DNA of 64,000 nucleotides, taken from positions 108,671 through 172,670 of IMG/VR virus record IMGVR_UViG_3300022514_000030; one strand, 5' to 3'. This document shows positions 5,750 through 61,191 of this stretch, one piece after another; the stretch's first letter is position 1; the number at the start of each line of letters is the position of its first letter. Made by a program: the position numbers and the translations under genes. Under the pieces are notes generated by a model. It did not search any database, was not told where the DNA came from, and was given only the letters and a program-made list of their open reading frames with translations. Source of the stretch: a virus.

Positions 5750-6625
5750 ATGTGCGGGAGAGCTCCAAGAGATAACCATCTGATGGGGGTTGAGCCCCCG
5801 GTGACGGCGATGGTGGTGGTCGCCGCAGACTTGCGGCTGCCGGGTGCACCGGTGCGTACTTGGCAGTTGGCGAAGGGAGGTGAGTTGGTAATTGGCGTGG
5901 CACCGGTGGAATTCAGGAATAGGACAACCGTTGGGTATATCACCACGGTTGATCATATAGGGGAAATTCGATGGCGAATCGAGGCCGGCCCGATGGGGGT
6001 ATATGCCACCCAGAGTGTTATGCCCGGCCAAGAGTGGAGTCACTTCCTGGACCCGCTTGGGAGAGATGTTAGTCCGTATGTGCACGCTGCCGTGGCCCGG
6101 GCGGCGGCGGAGCTGCTGCGGCTGGATCCGGGTAAGCCCCTTGGGGACAGTAGGTTTAGTGGCGTAAGTCAGTGCGTGGCGTGTCATGCGTTTAGGATCT
6201 TGCCGCAGGGCGATCAGGTTTTAGGAGACGCCGAGGGATGGGTGCGCACGCCCAGTACTGGTGATCTCCGCGACAGGGGGTTATGGCAGGCTGAAAGGTA
6301 CTATTGCGTTGTCCGCCATGAGACGCCCGAGGATATAGAGCGTCTTGTGGCGAAGGCCAATGCGGAATACACGAGGGGATGGAGCGCCCCCATCCTTCCC
6401 CTCCATTATGCGGGAGAGGAGTGTCCGTACTTCCTCCCGAAGGGAGCCGGGCGCCGCGGTGGTTTCCCGGCTTGGGAAGTCCCCGGTGGCCAGATCTCGA
6501 GCGATAATGTCGACATCGTTGACCGGGATGGCGTCAGGACTCTGCGTGTGCGAGCAGGGTTCTGGCAGGTTGAGGTGCCAGTGAAAAAGAATACCCCGTG
6601 CGCACACACGGGGCAAAAACAGTAA
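5750..6625 (+). CDS. Hypothetical protein, 291 aa
   Basis: ATG 5750 is preceded by AGGAGGTGAGAG. The product is soluble with mixed alpha/beta composition. Near residue 145 it has C-V-A-C-H, and a further Cys near residues 187 and 225, so metal binding is possible, but no known zinc module is clear. No family recognised. It is followed within 16 bases by the next gene and probably shares its transcript. Confidence 0.6.
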   Translation: MCGRAPRDNHLMGVEPPVTAMVVVAADLRLPGAPVRTWQLAKGGELVIGVAPVEFRNRTTVGYITTVDHIGEIRWRIEAGPMGVYATQSVMPGQEWSHFLDPLGRDVSPYVHAAVARAAAELLRLDPGKPLGDSRFSGVSQCVACHAFRILPQGDQVLGDAEGWVRTPSTGDLRDRGLWQAERYYCVVRHETPEDIERLVAKANAEYTRGWSAPILPLHYAGEECPYFLPKGAGRRGGFPAWEVPGGQISSDNVDIVDRDGVRTLRVRAGFWQVEVPVKKNTPCAHTGQKQ

Positions 6626-6641
6626 AAGGAGGTCGATAGTT

Positions 6642-7748
6642 ATGCTGAAAGCATTCATTCTCACAGATGATTATACTGCGATCCTGTTTGACGATCAAGG
6701 GGAGGAGACCATCATCGGACGGCTCCTACCCGGCCTCCAGGAGGTTATTGCAGAGGAGTTTGGCCAGGCGGTTCCCGAAGTTGACGAGGTGGTTGACGAG
6801 GTTGCTGATGAACCTATCGAGGCCTGTCTGATAGACGAGGATATTGAGTTCGAGGGTGTCGCCGACCTCGAGCTCCTCGGGGACGACGGAGACCCCGGGG
6901 ATCGTATACTCCCGGAGGAGTTTATCCGGTCCGGCGACCCGGTGGAGGACGAAGGCCTCACTCCACTGGACGCCGAGGAACTCATTCCAACCGGCGTGCT
7001 TTCCCAGGTAGCGGCTCCGCAGGATCTCTATGTTGCATATTTTGTCAATATCCAGCGGAGCGCGGAGAATCCGTGGGGTTCCCGCGACTCCTTCGCTGGG
7101 ATCGACGCTATCGCTGCTGCCGGAAGCTCCCTCCGCAGCTTACCGTACTTCTTCCAGGTTGTTGCTGTACTCCCCCGACAGCCGCGGGGAGAGTTCAGGA
7201 ATTTTATAGGCCGCGACGGCCGTGTCCACACAGTCCAGATGAAGGACCGGCCGTACGTGGTGGTTCGAGCTGGCGACATCGACGAAAACGGGAACTTCGT
7301 CCCCGGGATCGTCGATGAGGAGACTAGTGAGAGGAGGGAGCGGTACTTTGTTATCGCAGCCTGGAGCCTGTATAACATTCGAACAGGCGAGCGGTTCCAG
7401 TACACGGAGCCGACAGCTCCAGTGCGGCTTAACGAGGAATTCCGGCGGCGTGTGTTCCAAGTTTGCTGCGAGCGGTATCCCCACCTCTTCCAGAAGGTGC
7501 TTCACCCGAGGAAACACCTCGGTGTGAAGTACTGGCGGGTTGAGGTGCCGACCGAGGGAGACGGTGAGGCCTACGTCTCCTTCAGGTTCTGGGATGGCCG
7601 CTATACCAGAGAGGTTGTGCAAGTCTCCGGTTCTCAGCCCGTGCTTCCCGCTGCTCCAATTTCCCAGCTCCGGCTCTTTGCTCTACAGGCCGTCGCGTGG
7701 CGGCTTGTAGAGCAGGAGCTGGCTGGCGGAAAGGAGGTGAGTGAGTGA
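6642..7748 (+). CDS. Hypothetical protein with acidic N-terminal region, 368 aa
   Basis: ATG 6642 follows AAAAGGAGGTCGATAGTT. Residues about 40-115 are very rich in Asp and Glu (VDEVVDEVADEP and similar), like a DNA-mimic or flexible acidic linker. Residues 120-368 look globular, with many aromatic residues and a V-S-F-R-F-W-D-G-R-Y stretch. Not recognised. Its TGA overlaps the ATG of the next gene by one base (TGATG). Confidence 0.6.
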   Translation: MLKAFILTDDYTAILFDDQGEETIIGRLLPGLQEVIAEEFGQAVPEVDEVVDEVADEPIEACLIDEDIEFEGVADLELLGDDGDPGDRILPEEFIRSGDPVEDEGLTPLDAEELIPTGVLSQVAAPQDLYVAYFVNIQRSAENPWGSRDSFAGIDAIAAAGSSLRSLPYFFQVVAVLPRQPRGEFRNFIGRDGRVHTVQMKDRPYVVVRAGDIDENGNFVPGIVDEETSERRERYFVIAAWSLYNIRTGERFQYTEPTAPVRLNEEFRRRVFQVCCERYPHLFQKVLHPRKHLGVKYWRVEVPTEGDGEAYVSFRFWDGRYTREVVQVSGSQPVLPAAPISQLRLFALQAVAWRLVEQELAGGKEVSE

Positions 7749-7972: not shown

Positions 7973-8004
7973 GCCCGGACCTTACCGGGTTCACCCCTTT
8001 TTTG
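7965..8004 (+). terminator. Strong rho-independent terminator
   Basis: AGGGGTGAGCCCGG pairs with CCGGGTTCACCCCT (one wobble or mismatch) around a 6-base loop, followed by TTTTTT. Confidence 0.9.
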
Positions 8005-8155
8005 CTTGCAATACACCGCTTCCTTGGATACAGCTTCTGGCTTGTCTTTACTTCTTACGGTGAATTACCTCTCTTAAAGGTGATTCAACTAATAGCCTGA
8101 ACTTGGGACAAAAGCGCTCCGTCCAGGGTTCAGTGCCTTGCAAGGAGGTGAAAGC

Positions 8156-8308
8156 GTGTTCAAGCAAATTCTTCTTGACCTCCTCCAGCTTGGTATTACC
8201 GATACCGAGCTGGAGGACGGCACGGAGGTACGCAACCTCCGTGTCGAGCCCGGCAGGTATCCCTGCGCCTGCCGTGGTTATGTGGTGGCCGAGGTTAATG
8301 GCCGCTAG
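8156..8308 (+). CDS. Small Cys-containing protein, 50 aa, with in-frame extension past TAG
   Basis: GTG 8156 follows CAAGGAGGTGAAAGC. The product ends at TAG 8306-8308 after CAC...VNGR. The same frame stays open after the TAG for 16 more codons to TAA 8359 and adds CQECGGCH, which together with the earlier C-A-C would make a zinc-ribbon-like cysteine set. Either the gene really stops at TAG or the TAG is a nonsense change or readthrough point in a 67-residue protein. Confidence 0.5.
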   Translation: MFKQILLDLLQLGITDTELEDGTEVRNLRVEPGRYPCACRGYVVAEVNGR

Positions 8309-8448
8309 GTGCGCTACCGCTATGCACTCCCCTGCCAGGAGTGCGGCGGTTGCCACTAACAGCAGGGAAATCACCTTACCAGGCACCCGGGTAAGGTGAT
8401 TCAAACAACAGGGTGCAAATAATAACATCTTAAGGAGGTTGATAGTTT

Positions 8449-8973
8449 ATGATCATTTCGTTAGTAGGTAACGTGGGCAATGTAAGAGTGTTTACAGGGG
8501 AGGACGGCAAGAAGGCTGTCTTGTTCTCCGTCGCGGTTGACCAGAAGGCCGCGAACGGGGAAAAAGCAGCTCCAATATGGTACAGTTTCAGAGCGGTAAA
8601 CGGCTTAGCTGAGACGCTAAGCCAGTACTTGACAAAGGGGCGGCTTGTGTATGTCGCGGGGACCTCCCCACGGATACGCCAGTACGAGGTTGAGCGCACG
8701 CTCAACGTCGCTGGCGTGGGGACGGTGAAATTCAAGGACATTCGCCAGGAGGTTGAATACCTTCTGACGGACTTCAGATTCCTTGATGCGCCTGCTACTC
8801 AGGCTGCCCCGCAGGTTATCGAAGCTCAGGTTGTTGCTCCTGCTGCTCAGGCTGCTACCGCACAGGCTGCTCCTCAAGCTACTCCGCAGACGGTCGCCCA
8901 GGCCTCCCTGAAGGCTTCGGCTGTTCAGGTCGCTCAGGCTGCTCAGGCCATTCCTGAAGACTTGCCGTTCTGA
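8449..8973 (+). CDS. ssb: Single-stranded DNA-binding protein
   Basis: ATG 8449 follows TAAGGAGGTTGATAGTTT. Residues 1-110 form an OB-fold typical of SSB (I-S-L-V-G-N-V at the start; V-L-F-S-V-A-V-D and W-Y-S-F-R-A strands). Residues 115-165 are a low-complexity Ala/Gln/Pro linker. The end, PEDLPF, is the acidic SSB tip that recruits replication and repair partners. Flanked by terminators, so probably a single-gene unit. A second SSB lies at 29307. Confidence 0.92.
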   Translation: MIISLVGNVGNVRVFTGEDGKKAVLFSVAVDQKAANGEKAAPIWYSFRAVNGLAETLSQYLTKGRLVYVAGTSPRIRQYEVERTLNVAGVGTVKFKDIRQEVEYLLTDFRFLDAPATQAAPQVIEAQVVAPAAQAATAQAAPQATPQTVAQASLKASAVQVAQAAQAIPEDLPF

Positions 8974-8988
8974 AAGCAAGGCAGCGCT

Positions 8989-49670: not shown

Positions 49671-50249
49671 TTGATAGAGCTTACTCCTGAGTTTAGGCAA
49701 CAGTATGTCGAAGTGGTTGAGGGGCGCGACTTCATCAAGTACGACGGCTTGATGGAGCTCGCTCACGATCGCATTGCAAGCATTGAGGTTGAGCTGATTG
49801 CCCTTCCTGCCGTTACAAACCTCAACACAGCGGTGGTGAAAGCCACCATCACTGATACCGATGGACGCAAGTGGTCGGCGCTTGGTGATGCGTCCGACAC
49901 GACTTGCGCGCCCGAGCTTGCACCGCACAAGATACGCATTGCGGAGACGCGTGCCAAAGGGCGTGCGTTGAGGGATATGCTCAACATCGGCATGCCGATG
50001 TACGAGGAAGTCTTCCCCACACCGTCACAACAGACCTCTGTCGACGACAACGCACCTATAACGCTTGAGCAGATAGCCCGGTTCAAGCAGTTTATAGACG
50101 CCGGGCTCATGACGAAGGACGAGGCGCGCGACATCATGGTCAAAGCCGTGAACAAGGAAAGCTTGAACCAGTTAACCAGAGCAGAGGCAGATGCGCTGCT
50201 TAAAACCTTCACTCTGTATGTGGAGTCAAAAAGGAGCAGGGTCTCTTGA
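49671..50249 (+). CDS. Possible Rad52/DdrA-like annealing protein, 192 aa
   Basis: TTG 49671 follows AAAGGAGGTGCCCTAGC. D-F-I-K-Y-D-G-L-M-E-L-A, V-V-K-A-T-I-T-D-T-D-G-R-K, G-D-A-S and IRIAETRAKGRALRDMLNIG follow the pattern of phage Rad52-like/DdrA proteins. The C-terminal 70 residues are helical. Fits the recombination gene set; assignment is tentative. Confidence 0.55.
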   Translation: MIELTPEFRQQYVEVVEGRDFIKYDGLMELAHDRIASIEVELIALPAVTNLNTAVVKATITDTDGRKWSALGDASDTTCAPELAPHKIRIAETRAKGRALRDMLNIGMPMYEEVFPTPSQQTSVDDNAPITLEQIARFKQFIDAGLMTKDEARDIMVKAVNKESLNQLTRAEADALLKTFTLYVESKRSRVS

Positions 50250-50911
50250 ACCTTGTCGTCAAAATCCTGCTCCCCATTCTCATCTTAATCCTTCTGTTTG
50301 CCTCTGCTCGATCCTGTCCTGCACCGCCCGCTAAACGCAGTACAACTGTTGTAACTAACAACATGCCAGCCAGCAGCGGTGCAGACGGGACCGATGGAGG
50401 AGCCGAGCCTGACGAGAAAGCTGAGACTGACGAGAAAGCTGAGACTGACGAGAAAGCTGAGACTGATGAGAAAGCCGAGACCGACGAGAAAGCTGAGACT
50501 GATGAGCCGAGCTGTACAGTTACAGTTTCGCCAGCGCTACAGGTCAGCGAGGCAGATGTCTCATCCCGTCACGCGGATGAGCACAAGTCCAAGCCAGACC
50601 TGGTGGCGCAGTTCACGGTTACAGCCTATACGGCACATGATGCAGGTATGGATGGGCGCGGCATCACAGCTACCGGTACAAAAGCTACGTATGGGCGTAC
50701 GATAGCAGTCGATCCGCGCCTTATCCCCTACGGCTCCAAGGTGTATATCCCCGCGCTCCAAGACTGGCCCAATAAAGGCTGGTTCATAGCCGAGGACACC
50801 GGTGGGGCCATCAAGGGATACAAGCTGGACATCTTTATTCCGGACAGAGGTGCTGCACTACGGTTCGGCAGACAGCGCCTGGAAGCACACGTATACAAAC
50901 CTAAGGACTAG
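50246..50911 (+). CDS. Secreted 3D-domain protein with DEKAET repeats
   Basis: TTG 50246 overlaps the preceding stop codon and follows AAAAAGGAGC. Residues 1-20 form a signal or anchor helix, then Cys. Residues about 55-85 repeat DEKAET five times. Residues 120-221 form a 3D domain: T-A-Y-T-A-H, T-A-T-G-T, I-A-V-D-P, L-I-P-Y-G, ...A-E-D-T-G-G and L-D-I-F, with the three conserved Asp residues. Such domains resemble lytic transglycosylase folds of cell-wall and spore proteins; a cell-wall function is inferred. Confidence 0.82.
   Translation: MNLVVKILLPILILILLFASARSCPAPPAKRSTTVVTNNMPASSGADGTDGGAEPDEKAETDEKAETDEKAETDEKAETDEKAETDEPSCTVTVSPALQVSEADVSSRHADEHKSKPDLVAQFTVTAYTAHDAGMDGRGITATGTKATYGRTIAVDPRLIPYGSKVYIPALQDWPNKGWFIAEDTGGAIKGYKLDIFIPDRGAALRFGRQRLEAHVYKPKD
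50411..50500 (+). repeat. 18-base coding tandem repeat (DEKAET x5)
   Basis: Five in-frame copies of GACGAGAAAGCTGAGACT, with a few synonymous changes, in the linker of the 3D-domain gene. Confidence 0.88.
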
Positions 50912-51827: not shown

Positions 51828-51851
51828 CCCGGGGCGCAGAGGTGCCCCGGG
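51828..51851 (+). terminator. GC-rich hairpin, possible terminator
   Basis: CCCGGGGC and GCCCCGGG, 8 bp, with a short loop. Only a weak T tract follows. Confidence 0.5.
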
Positions 51852-51877
51852 TATGTTTCTGAAAGGAGGTTTCGGTA

Positions 51878-54193
51878 TTGCGCATCCTGTTCTTCACTGA
51901 CACGCACATACGGTTTTTCTCGCCTGTCAATCGCAAGGACAATTTCCAGGAAGCCATCTTCACGAAGCTTGAAGAGGTTGTCCAAATCGCAAATGAGCAC
52001 AATGTTGACCTGGTAGTGCACGGTGGCGATCTGTTTGACAGATATGACGTCACAAACAAACTGCTTGGTCGCACGGCCGCACTGCTACGCCAGTTCAAGT
52101 GCCCCATATATGTCCTGCCGGGCAACCACGACATAGTGGGCTACTCGGTAGAAACTCTCCCCTCTACCTCGCTTGATGTCCTAGCCAAGAGCGGTGTTAT
52201 AAAGCTGCTGCTTGAACCGCAAGTGATAGACGATGTGCTCCTCTACCCTATTCCCTCCTCTGCTGATATACCGGAGTCTTCATACAGAATAGAGAGAGGT
52301 GCGGCCAGGGTTGTTGTGATTGTTGCCCACGACAATCTCCTACCCCAGCCGGTGCATAAAGATATCCCGCATAAGGTGATATCTGATTCCCTGTCCAATG
52401 CCGATATCGTGCTCTTGGGTCACTGGCATCCGGGCTGGCCGGAGCCGGTAAAAGCCGGTTCAACGCTGTACGTCAATCCCGGTTCGATTGCGCGTCTGGA
52501 CATCGGCCCTGGCTCGAGGGACAGGCGCGTACAGGTGGTACTGATAGACATCAACGATTCCGTATCCGTGCAGTATGTTCCCCTTTCCTCTGCCAGGCCC
52601 TATGACGAAGTGTTTGTTGAGGTATCCAGCAAGCACACAGCGGACCTTGAGGATGTAGGCAAGGCGATAAATACGGCGTCATCCGACATACCGGTAGTTG
52701 ATGTCTTTTCAATGCTTGCCGAGATGGACGTGCCGGATGAACTGCGTGCTGTCATCAACGAAAAGCTGGACACAACCAGTCAGGCGTCAGATGCCTGTTG
52801 GACATCGGACCTGGTGCACATATCGGAAGTTGAGCTTACCAACTTCCAGAGCCACGCTGATACTAAACTGAGATTAGCACCCGGGCTCAATGTCATAGTT
52901 GGCCCAAGTGACAGTGGCAAGAGTGCTGTCCTTCGGGCGCTGTGGTGGCTGTTCTACAATAAACCCAAGGGTGCAGACTTTGTGCGGATAGGCAGTAAGA
53001 GCGCATCGGTAAAAGCTGTATTCTCAAGCGGGTCGTACATTGAGCGTTCAAGGACGCGGTCGTCATCGGGAAGCTATACCTATCGCGTTCCCGGTTCAGA
53101 GCCGGTGGAGCTTAAAGGGTTTGGCTCGACGCTCCCGCCAGAGGTAGTATCAATACACAAGACGCCGCTTCTTACCATTGCCGGCGAGGATGTTTCGATA
53201 AACATAGCCCGTCAGTTTGACCCGCCGTTTATGCTGGGCTCGGGCCCGTCGTTCACCATATCCCTGCTTGATGTTATGACGCGCAATGACGTAGTGTTTG
53301 AGGCTATAAAGCAGCTTAAGGCAGAGCTGCAGGCAACCAAGACCGTACTGCCGCAGTACCAAGAGCTGCTTGACAAACAGAACAAAGCGATAGCCTCTTT
53401 AGAGCAGTTGCTTTCTCTGTCGGACCGTGTCGAACAGATTGAGCATGAGCTTATGCGACTGGTGGACGATTGCCGCAAACTGATACGTATACGTGATTTG
53501 TATAATGGGTGGATTAAGTTGAAAGAAAGCTCGGCGGAACGGCTCCAGGCGCTTCAGGAGCTTCAGGCAAAAGCTGAGCGGCTGGATCGAATGTTGCAGG
53601 AAGCGGAGCGCGCCGCGGCACTGCTCAGCTCCAAGCACGTACCGTTTGCGCAGGGCTATAACCAGCGCATTGCCCAGCTGAGACGACTGCTGCCGCAGCT
53701 CTCCACAGCCCAGCTCGCAAATGCGTACAAGTGCTACGTTGAGCTTATAAGTGAGCTGAACGTGTGTCCGCTGTGCGGCGGCGTGGTAAACACCTCAGGC
53801 ATCATATCCGAGATAACATCGCAGTATGAGGCAATTGTAGACCAGGTCAACAGAATTGCAAAGGAGGTCATGGGAATGACGGCAAAGGAGATTAAGACCG
53901 CCGGCGACGACGTCATGCTAAAGGTCAGGGCACTCAGGTCGAACTTTGAGTCGGCATGCGCCAACCTCAACTCCGCAATAGCGGTCGCCGCTGCTAACAT
54001 AGACGAAGCGAAGAAGCTTGAGCAGCAGTGTCAGGAGGAGTTTGGTGTTGACATTACACAGTTCGAGACGCTCATGAATGACATGCAGAAGAGCATTGAG
54101 CAGCAGCTCGGGCGTATCCAGCAGGAGCTTGAACAGCTCAAGCAGCAGTACACGGCTCTTCTTTCTTCGGTCAAGGAACAGGGGGTGTTGTAA
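51878..54193 (+). CDS. Mre11 (SbcD)-Rad50 N-terminal half fusion, 771 aa
   Basis: TTG 51878 follows GAAAGGAGGTTTCGGTA. Residues 1-230 are an Mre11/SbcD phosphodiesterase: D-T-H (8-10), G-G-D-L-F-D (49-54), G-N-H-D (82-85), A-H-D and G-H-W-H. From about 312 a Rad50/SbcC ATPase N-lobe starts: F-Q-S-H and Walker A GPSDSGKS (342-349). A coiled coil follows, with a zinc hook CPLC at 630-633 and a return helix to the end. The C-terminal ATPase lobe is encoded separately by the next gene. Normally Mre11 and Rad50 are two complete proteins. Confidence 0.88.
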   Translation: MRILFFTDTHIRFFSPVNRKDNFQEAIFTKLEEVVQIANEHNVDLVVHGGDLFDRYDVTNKLLGRTAALLRQFKCPIYVLPGNHDIVGYSVETLPSTSLDVLAKSGVIKLLLEPQVIDDVLLYPIPSSADIPESSYRIERGAARVVVIVAHDNLLPQPVHKDIPHKVISDSLSNADIVLLGHWHPGWPEPVKAGSTLYVNPGSIARLDIGPGSRDRRVQVVLIDINDSVSVQYVPLSSARPYDEVFVEVSSKHTADLEDVGKAINTASSDIPVVDVFSMLAEMDVPDELRAVINEKLDTTSQASDACWTSDLVHISEVELTNFQSHADTKLRLAPGLNVIVGPSDSGKSAVLRALWWLFYNKPKGADFVRIGSKSASVKAVFSSGSYIERSRTRSSSGSYTYRVPGSEPVELKGFGSTLPPEVVSIHKTPLLTIAGEDVSINIARQFDPPFMLGSGPSFTISLLDVMTRNDVVFEAIKQLKAELQATKTVLPQYQELLDKQNKAIASLEQLLSLSDRVEQIEHELMRLVDDCRKLIRIRDLYNGWIKLKESSAERLQALQELQAKAERLDRMLQEAERAAALLSSKHVPFAQGYNQRIAQLRRLLPQLSTAQLANAYKCYVELISELNVCPLCGGVVNTSGIISEITSQYEAIVDQVNRIAKEVMGMTAKEIKTAGDDVMLKVRALRSNFESACANLNSAIAVAAANIDEAKKLEQQCQEEFGVDITQFETLMNDMQKSIEQQLGRIQQELEQLKQQYTALLSSVKEQGVL

Positions 54194-54194
54194 G

Positions 54195-54863
54195 GTGGAC
54201 GAACTGCTTACACATATAGAGAAGCTCAAATCGGAGCTGGACGGCATGCGCGCCGTCCTTTCCCACTACTCCGACTCACTCTCTTCTGTTCGAACAAAGA
54301 GAGATGAGCTGAAGACTCAAATCGACTCCCTTGAGCAAAGGGTTGATGCTCTGCAGCGCGCTTCAGCACTGCTTCAGTCGTTGAGCAACCTCTCACGCGA
54401 GCGCGTGTCCAAACACCTGAGCGAGATCGTATCCACTGCACTCCAGTACGTCTACGGTTCAGACTTCAAGTTCGAGCTGGAGCTTGTCACGGACAAGCGC
54501 GGTAACACCACTGTTGAGTACTATGTCACAAGCGGTGATGGGATACGTACCAGGCCGCAGGACTCACGCGGCGGTGGTGTGGTGGACGTGATAAGCATAG
54601 CCTTGCGGATAGGCGTCCTGCTGCTTATGAACAATCCTCCCCTGCCGGGGCCCATCATCCTGGACGAGCCGGGCAGGCACCTCGATCAGGAGTCTGCTGT
54701 GAGGTTTGCCGAGTTCCTCAAGTACATCTCTTCCACCACTGGGAGGCAGTTCATAGTGGTCACGCACCACGAGGCAATGCTGCCGTACGCTGATGCGGCA
54801 TATGTTATCGAAAAGTCGGGTGATATCTCAACAGTGTCGGAGGTTGATGTCAATGGCGGCTAA
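54195..54863 (+). CDS. Separate Rad50/SbcC C-terminal ATPase lobe, 222 aa
   Basis: GTG 54195 begins one base after the TAA of the fusion gene. Residues 1-85 are coiled coil. Then come the signature-like R-G-G-G-V-V-D-V-I-S-I and Walker B I-I-L-D-E-P-G-R-H-L-D, followed by V-V-T-H-H-E (H-loop). It lacks Walker A and so must pair with the upstream fusion to form complete ABC-type ATPase sites. Confidence 0.88.
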   Translation: MDELLTHIEKLKSELDGMRAVLSHYSDSLSSVRTKRDELKTQIDSLEQRVDALQRASALLQSLSNLSRERVSKHLSEIVSTALQYVYGSDFKFELELVTDKRGNTTVEYYVTSGDGIRTRPQDSRGGGVVDVISIALRIGVLLLMNNPPLPGPIILDEPGRHLDQESAVRFAEFLKYISSTTGRQFIVVTHHEAMLPYADAAYVIEKSGDISTVSEVDVNGG

Positions 54864-59358: not shown

Positions 59359-61191
59359 ATGCTTACAACCCGGACATTTGAAGAGGACTTAGCAAGAGAG
59401 CTTGTAGACTCGTACATTACGGAGCGTGACTGGAGGGTCAAGGAGAACGCCAACTCTACCTTCTCTCTTCAGTCTCTTAACCATTATCTTGCCTCAAGAC
59501 TGATTGCAACATACTGGCTGAGCGAGGTATACCCAAGAGATATTGCGGACGCTCACAGGAATGGTGATTTTCACATCCACGATCTGGGTTCTTTGTCGAG
59601 TTATTGCTGTGGGTGGGACCTGTATCAGCTGCTGGAGGAAGGGTTCAGGGGCTCGACGATTGGAGCTATCAGCGACCCACCCAAGCACTTTAGGACTGCC
59701 CTCGGACAGATAGTCAACTTCTTCTTCACCCTGCAGGGCGAGGCAGCGGGGGCGCAGGCTTTTGCTTCGTTTGATACCTACCTCGCTCCGTTCGTGAGGG
59801 CTGACAAGCTAACGTACGAAGAGGTCAAGCAGGCGCTCCAGGAGTTTCTGTTCAACATGAACGTGCCGATCCGCGCTTCGTCGCAGGTGCCATTCACAAA
59901 CATTACGCTGGACCTTAAACCTTCCCCTGCCCTTGCTAATCTACCTGCTCTTGTCGGCGGCAAGCCGTACGGTTACTACGGCGAGTTCCAGAAAGAGATG
60001 GACATGATAAACATGGCCCTTGCGGAGCTCATGCTGGAAGGTGATGCGCTTGGCCGTGGCTTCACATTCCCAATCCCCACATACAACGTCACTCCGGACT
60101 TTGACCCATCCAACCCAGTTGTGCGTAAGGTATTCGAGCTTACTGCTAAGTTCGGGAGTCCCTACTTTGCCAATTTCATATCCTCAGACATGAAGCCTGA
60201 GGACGTCAGGTCAATGTGCTGCCGGCTGAGGTTGGATGTTTCCGAGCTCAAAAAGAAAGGGGGCGGACTATTCGGAGCAAACCCCTTGACTGGATCCATT
60301 GGCGTCGTGACAATCAACCTGCCGCGCCTCGGGTATTTGTCGCAAACCCGTGAGGAATACTTCCAGCGTCTCGGTGAACTAGTAGACCTTGCGGTGGAGT
60401 CTCTCAACATTAAGCGTACGGTAGTTGAAGATCTTACCGAGAGAGGCTTGTACCCATACTCCAAGCATTACCTCAGACAGGTCAAAGAGGCCCGCGGTTC
60501 ATACTGGGCGAACCACTTTGGCACCGTAGGAGTTGTGGGAATGAACGAGGCATGCCTCAACCTGCTCGGGGTGGGTATAGCGCACCCGGACGGCTACCAG
60601 TTGGCCAAGGATACTCTCCTGTTTATCCGTGAGCGTCTTGTAGAGCACCAGAAGAAGCACGGCTTAATGTATAACCTTGAAGCCACGCCTGCCGAAGGCA
60701 CGTCCTACAGGCTTGCGCGTATAGACAAGAGGATGTATCCTGATATCATAGTTGCCAATGAGGAGGCTTACAGGGGCGGCGTAGAGCCCTATTACACCAA
60801 CTCCACAATGCTTCCCGTCGGCTATACGGATGACATATTTGAGCTCCTCGAGCATCAGTCGCCGCTCCAGTCGCTCTATACCGGTGGTACGGTGTTCCAT
60901 ATGTTCATCGGCGAGCGGCAGCCAGACCCCGAGGCCTGCGCATCACTCATACTCCGTGTATTTTCCAACTATACCCTGCCCTATATGTCCATAACACCGA
61001 CGTATTCGATCTGCCCCGACCACGGCTATATATTCGGTGAGCATGAAGTATGCCCGACCTGCGGCGCAGAATGTGAGGTCTACTCAAGGATTGTGGGGTA
61101 TTACAGAGCAACTAAAAACTGGAATGCCGGGAAGAGGGCAGAGTTTAAAGACCGCGCAACGTTTGACAAAGTCTTTGCAGGAGCGTGCTAA
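59359..61191 (+). CDS. nrdD: Anaerobic ribonucleoside-triphosphate reductase NrdD
   Basis: 610 residues from ATG 59359, after CAAGGAGGACGGCGCT. F-H-I-H-D-L-G-S-L, the finger-loop cysteines, a C-terminal zinc site (C-P-D-H-G...C-P-T-C-G-A) and R-I-V-G-Y-Y-R with the glycyl-radical Gly are all present. It reduces NTPs to dNTPs without oxygen, fitting an anaerobic host. The N-terminal ATP-cone is absent, as in shorter class III enzymes. Confidence 0.95.
   Translation: MLTTRTFEEDLARELVDSYITERDWRVKENANSTFSLQSLNHYLASRLIATYWLSEVYPRDIADAHRNGDFHIHDLGSLSSYCCGWDLYQLLEEGFRGSTIGAISDPPKHFRTALGQIVNFFFTLQGEAAGAQAFASFDTYLAPFVRADKLTYEEVKQALQEFLFNMNVPIRASSQVPFTNITLDLKPSPALANLPALVGGKPYGYYGEFQKEMDMINMALAELMLEGDALGRGFTFPIPTYNVTPDFDPSNPVVRKVFELTAKFGSPYFANFISSDMKPEDVRSMCCRLRLDVSELKKKGGGLFGANPLTGSIGVVTINLPRLGYLSQTREEYFQRLGELVDLAVESLNIKRTVVEDLTERGLYPYSKHYLRQVKEARGSYWANHFGTVGVVGMNEACLNLLGVGIAHPDGYQLAKDTLLFIRERLVEHQKKHGLMYNLEATPAEGTSYRLARIDKRMYPDIIVANEEAYRGGVEPYYTNSTMLPVGYTDDIFELLEHQSPLQSLYTGGTVFHMFIGERQPDPEACASLILRVFSNYTLPYMSITPTYSICPDHGYIFGEHEVCPTCGAECEVYSRIVGYYRATKNWNAGKRAEFKDRATFDKVFAGAC

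Follow-up and report, generated by a model that had tools for sequence, protein, structure and literature searches.

Phage T4 gp47/gp46 and Escherichia coli SbcDC belong to the same enzyme classes as the proteins described here and probably share with them a role in DNA-end processing; in both, however, the Rad50/SbcC chain is continuous and the nuclease is encoded by a separate gene, unlike the arrangement reported below. Archaeal Rad50 is also one chain. Operons of nurA, herA, mre11 and rad50 occur in archaea, for example in Sulfolobus (PMC4351679); neither nurA nor herA was seen at the present locus, whereas nurA-herA operons with a split rad50, on Clostridia contigs, hold the closest relatives of its Mre11 and Rad50 parts. 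Fusions of Mre11 to Rad50 have been known since 2011, namely Mimivirus R555 and twelve others (Yoshida et al. 2011, PMC3175470), which contradicts the premise of a first-pass annotation of this DNA that known complexes always consist of a separate and complete Mre11 and Rad50. For two of the thirteen, the fusions of Bacillus phage 0305phi8-36 and of Anaerostipes, only one of the two NTPase segments was observed (PMC3175470).

The locus studied here lies on the virus contig IMGVR_UViG_3300022514_000030 (172,670 bases), which carries one clear copy of each Mre11/Rad50 part. Within the window (the whole stretch of DNA analysed, 64,000 nucleotides, positions 108,671 to 172,670 of that record) these parts are distributed over two genes, ORF A and ORF B. 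Like the fusions of Yoshida et al., ORF A has an N-terminal Mre11-like domain covalently joined to Rad50-like sequence, but it holds the Rad50 N-lobe only, whereas most of those fusions have both lobes in one chain. The absence of one NTPase segment from the fused chain is shared with 0305phi8-36 and Anaerostipes; the 0305phi8-36 fusion was reported without the capping/helix-loop-helix part, which the window keeps, and the location of its missing lobe is not given in that report.

The nearest phage record with both Rad50 halves is Bacillus phage vB_BboS-125 (gp32/gp35), which resembles the window in its split Rad50, its altered signature and its membership of phrog_16465 and phrog_15167. Its N-half (471 aa) ends 9 residues past CPLC, and its C-half has 211 aa. 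Unlike the window, it has SbcD as a separate gene, together with a small gene that we call S (a name coined in this analysis for phrog_18563, function unknown). The vB_BboS-125 SbcD gene scores clearly at 7998-8978 of locus L001 (MH884509.1) and is unannotated in GenBank; between the two Rad50 halves of the same phage, at 6158-6730, lies a gene for an AP2-domain protein, possibly a homing-endonuclease relative. By comparing the window with these systems and with a wide selection of viral and genome contigs, we judge the products of ORF A and ORF B likely to form a DNA-end nuclease of the Mre11-Rad50 (SbcDC) type with two chains, one of a widespread group whose Rad50 is not a continuous chain.

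Gene layout and the Mre11-Rad50 junction

ORF A (51878..54193, 771 aa; all features are on the + strand) starts at a TTG 8 nt downstream of an AGGAGG ribosome-binding site (51864..51869, read in the sequence). It comprises an Mre11/SbcD part, a Rad50 N-lobe, a coil, a CPLC hook and a 138-aa tail. Its TAA stop (54191-54193) is followed by a single base (54194) and then by the GTG start of ORF B (54195..54863, 222 aa), which lies in the +1 frame and encodes a short coil and the Rad50 C-lobe. A ribosome-binding-like AGGGGG (54180..54185, read in the sequence) stands 9 nt before this GTG.

The genes around the locus are replication and nucleotide-metabolism genes, with a dUTPase and a UvrD helicase on one side and a DnaG-type primase on the other. 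An anaerobic ribonucleotide reductase is encoded nearby (59359-61191; NRDD, 4.4e-191), and this suggests that the host of the virus is apparently an anaerobic bacterium. Just 5' of the fused gene (51828-51851) is a perfect 8-bp inverted repeat, CCCGGGGC/GCCCCGGG, without a T run, and further upstream an ORF (50246-50911) has a run of DEKAET repeats close to its N-terminus.

The Mre11/SbcD phosphodiesterase domain occupies approximately residues 1-250 of ORF A (51878..52627; Pfam Metallophos, 2.5e-16, residues 1-185), and holds the complete calcineurin-type set of metal ligands (D8, H10, D51, N83, H151, H182 and H184), invariant between the window and its relatives. Approximately residues 256-298 (52643..52771) align, with a 4-residue gap and approximate limits, to the Rad50-binding helix-loop-helix end of the relatives' SbcD. 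Then comes the Mre11-Rad50 linker (52772..52819), located by comparison with relatives, which have a stop/start overlap there. At about 16 residues it exceeds the 9-12 residues judged enough to connect Mre11 and Rad50, an estimate made from the Thermotoga maritima complex (PMC3175470).

The coding frame across this junction is unbroken. Because the relatives' Mre11 stop and Rad50-N start overlap in different frames, a single-base error in the linker would suffice to produce or abolish the fusion, and there is indeed a stop in another frame near 52831 as well as an in-frame GTG at 52814. We nevertheless consider it unlikely that the fusion is a sequencing or assembly error, such that the window really carries two overlapping or adjacent genes as in its relatives and the split Rad50 is its sole real peculiarity: codon usage favours frame A over the linker and is strongly against the other frames (the frame A score holds over 52610-53000, and the change to frame B comes at the stop/start near 54190), and the internal GTG has no good ribosome-binding site upstream. 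The chief caution is that the fusion is known from a single contig. When ORF A was used as a single-protein query against viral contigs no relative was found, so that search gave no second example, and among all loci scanned the window alone has Mre11 fused to Rad50-N.

The two Rad50 halves and the zinc motif

In ORF A the Rad50 N-lobe spans approximately residues 315-475 (52820..53302), with matches to Pfam AAA_23 (3.5e-18, residues 318-532) and phrog_16465 (2.1e-38) and a Walker A motif GPSDSGKS at 52901-52924. It is followed by a rising coiled coil (53303..53764; helix 161-276 of the model described below, equivalent to residues 470-585), and by the CPLC zinc-hook motif (residues 630-633, 53765..53776), which is read from the sequence, the Rad50_zn_hook match being sub-threshold (E 0.02). 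ORF B matches the C-terminal part of SMC_N (3.6e-6) and phrog_15167, a family of 211-aa phage ATPases (2.3e-42); it carries an RGGGV signature (54567-54581), a Walker B LDE (54660-54668, within IILDEP) and an H-loop TH (54762-54767). The domain matches of both ORFs are homologies at profile level and not due to chance. The content assigned to the first gene by the first-pass annotation (SbcD motifs, Rad50 Walker A, coil and CPLC) is thus borne out, as are the coil, Walker B and H-loop of the gene one base further on; its ABC signature, however, is RGGGV and not LSGGx. As this signature is without the serine of LSGGx, ATP hydrolysis may differ.

The two lobes are not in a single polypeptide, as they are in a canonical SbcC/Rad50, the C-lobe being in the next gene. 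The position of ORF B in the +1 frame after the stop, with AGGGGG just upstream, loosely recalls the frameshift site of bacterial RF2, and it could be proposed that ribosomes shift by +1 at the stop and link A to B, so that the cell makes a continuous Mre11-Rad50 as well. This is very unlikely in our view, as the TTG codon before the stop would re-pair poorly after slippage and AGGGGG is well placed for a start of ORF B at its GTG. The beginning of ORF B also matches the beginning of the relatives' separate C-half genes, and since relatives start the C-half at this same place as a separate gene, two chains are argued for. It could also be supposed that the non-canonical RGGGV signature and the stop interrupting Rad50 mark a decaying or non-functional locus. 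We give that supposition almost no credence, given that the catalytic motifs are retained on both chains, that ORF B has its own start and ribosome-binding-like site, and that very diverse phages and bacteria have kept both the split and the altered signature.

The two-chain head proposed here was modelled from the Rad50 part only (residues 310-994), with chains A and B joined via one artificial residue. Both lobes are predicted with high confidence (pLDDT mostly 85-98), the distal coils poorly, and the overall pTM is 0.60; helices are predicted on both sides of CPLC. Foldseek matches the joined model to Rad50/SMC heads. The structures 1ii8 and 1f2u, both among the hits obtained in this analysis, are Rad50 heads crystallised with their two lobes as separate chains, so assembly from two chains is plausible. 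The earlier proposal, a Rad50 with its lobes on separate chains and a covalent link between Mre11 and the chain of the N-lobe, is supported.

The 138 residues after the hook (53777..54190) are predicted as a helix, a short break at GV and another helix, and stand where relatives have the small S gene. By eye they are like S, with the GV turn in register, and the tail was accordingly considered as an S protein. The HMM match is weak and in several pieces, and a composition-corrected PSSM lent the identification no support: the tail scored -10, whereas true S proteins score 53 or more, and scores as good came from 5 of 169 control coils and from 2 of 300 shuffles. The tail is not recognisably S by sequence. 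No S gene was found in the whole 172,670-base record.

Split Rad50 in phages and Clostridia

Viral and genome contigs were scanned with alignments of the Mre11 and Rad50 parts, which gave approximately 300 loci, many of them overlapping; removal of similar sequences left 101 distinct N-lobe proteins. In 98 of these, from both phages and bacteria, the frame that encodes the N-lobe does not include the C-lobe, and in every one of the 98 distinct Rad50 N-halves the chain ends 3-33 residues (median 9) past CxxC. By contrast, two unsplit phage proteins (L126 and L130) have CxxC in mid-chain, with 305 and 342 residues beyond it, and they have SGG in the signature, whereas an xGG-type signature without the serine is common to the split relatives. 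Many split loci also encode S, a conserved protein of about 80 aa with two helices and a GVxPE turn, often directly before the C-half; in other members of the group the S match is weak or absent.

The window is a member of this split-Rad50 group, with a tree position that is not firmly supported. It shares the gene order and the altered signature of the group, its N- and C-lobes being on separate chains with an xGG-type signature, while three features set it apart: its Mre11 forms one chain with the N-half, 138 residues follow CPLC (the other N-halves end no more than about 33 residues past CxxC), and a separate S is absent. A tree of N-lobes places the window inside the split group with moderate support and a long branch; in a concatenated tree its position is not fixed, and a grouping of the window with the D-N-C group is not rejected (p-AU 0.19).

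The tails of 34 of the 98 N-halves have at least two His/Cys after CxxC, so some N-halves may bind zinc alone and not pair as a hook. In L019, L005, L024, L035 and others the residues after the CPxC at the end of the N-half are often His/Cys-rich, for example CPLCESPMSFEHSH. To judge from such sequences, the terminal CPxC could be a self-contained zinc site and not a two-chain hook. A model of L135, bearing on whether CxxC lies at the arm apex or part-way down, reached a pTM of 0.34. On a 272-kb phage contig, a single frame (L122, 5320-7275) encodes the C-lobe, then the N-lobe, a coil and a terminal CPLC, which makes this Rad50 circularly permuted. Elsewhere, an SbcD frame of 744 aa (L048, 887-3118) is interrupted between its nuclease motifs; the intein-like insert there is several hundred residues long, begins CFLPGTKLIDW and finishes YVAGLLLTHNC.

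The closest relatives of the window by sequence have the gene order Mre11 / Rad50-N / S / Rad50-C, in most of them with an ATGA-type overlap of the Mre11 stop and the Rad50-N start. Most of them lie on contigs that bear Clostridia names (Peptococcaceae, Syntrophomonadaceae and Thermoanaerobacterales). ORF A was matched in all of 20 genomes of one class, most with both Mre11 and Rad50-N matches, which rules out that the split relatives are all phage-borne; the N-half was matched in 49 of 299 genomes drawn from the phylum (E <= 1e-20). Several of the Clostridia split loci are deep within contigs of at least 2 Mb, and in many Clostridia genomes nurA and herA are directly upstream of the split set. 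The split C-half was found in ten of ten split-Rad50 Clostridia genomes, none of which has a match reaching the curated SbcC cut-off. As that cut-off was passed by just 1 of 14 control genomes, this absence of canonical SbcC is suggestive and not proof.

Rad50 made in pieces, cut beside its zinc-binding motif, is apparently a large and undescribed group in phages and Clostridia: no paper on split Rad50 or on S was found in a literature search without most subscription journals and all bioRxiv preprints. The novelty seems to lie in this wider group and not in the Mre11-Rad50 fusion as such. Where the first-pass annotation had seen a possible new form of the complex, the fusion has been known since 2011, and the split Rad50 and S seem unreported but, with 98 distinct N-halves, the split is not special to this phage. 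Of the layout that it proposed to look for elsewhere, the split Rad50 was found widely in phages and Clostridia, but no second fusion of Mre11 with an N-half was found among the loci scanned.

A proposed mechanism and its meaning

We propose that chain A would contribute the nuclease, the Rad50-binding helices, the Rad50 N-lobe, the rising coil, the CPLC zinc motif and the helical tail, and chain B the terminal stretch of the descending coil together with the C-lobe, such that one A and one B may form a whole Rad50 head with an Mre11 of its own attached. Two A:B units would pair via Mre11 and via ATP held between the heads, perhaps also via zinc at the hooks, and the resulting 2A:2B complex would serve phage replication and recombination by binding and trimming DNA ends, in the manner of T4 gp47/gp46. 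The fusion would fix the stoichiometry of the complex and may alter how its arms open, as the first-pass annotation had suggested. The layout probably arose from a Clostridia-type Mre11 / Rad50-N / S / Rad50-C operon by loss of the overlapping Mre11 stop and Rad50-N start.

More broadly, we lean towards a branch of Mre11-Rad50 that builds Rad50 from three chains: a lobe with a coil ending at the zinc motif, the two-helix S, and a short coil with the other lobe. Such a branch would occur in phages and perhaps be the only SbcC-type system of many Clostridia; the zinc motif would be a chain end at which the arm may open, exchange or be regulated, and the window would show such parts re-joined, with Mre11 fused to the zinc-motif chain.

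Accounts of how Mre11-Rad50 tethers DNA and transmits ATP signals give a central place to its long, continuous coiled-coil arm, which is tipped by a zinc hook. A large natural group whose chains end at the zinc motif, frequently accompanied by a small additional gene, makes it possible to ask directly what an unbroken arm is needed for. The fusion in the window and the permuted Rad50 of L122 are natural rearrangements that support a physical association of the separated parts, and the Clostridia nurA-herA operon would extend split Rad50 from a phage curiosity to a repair system of cells.
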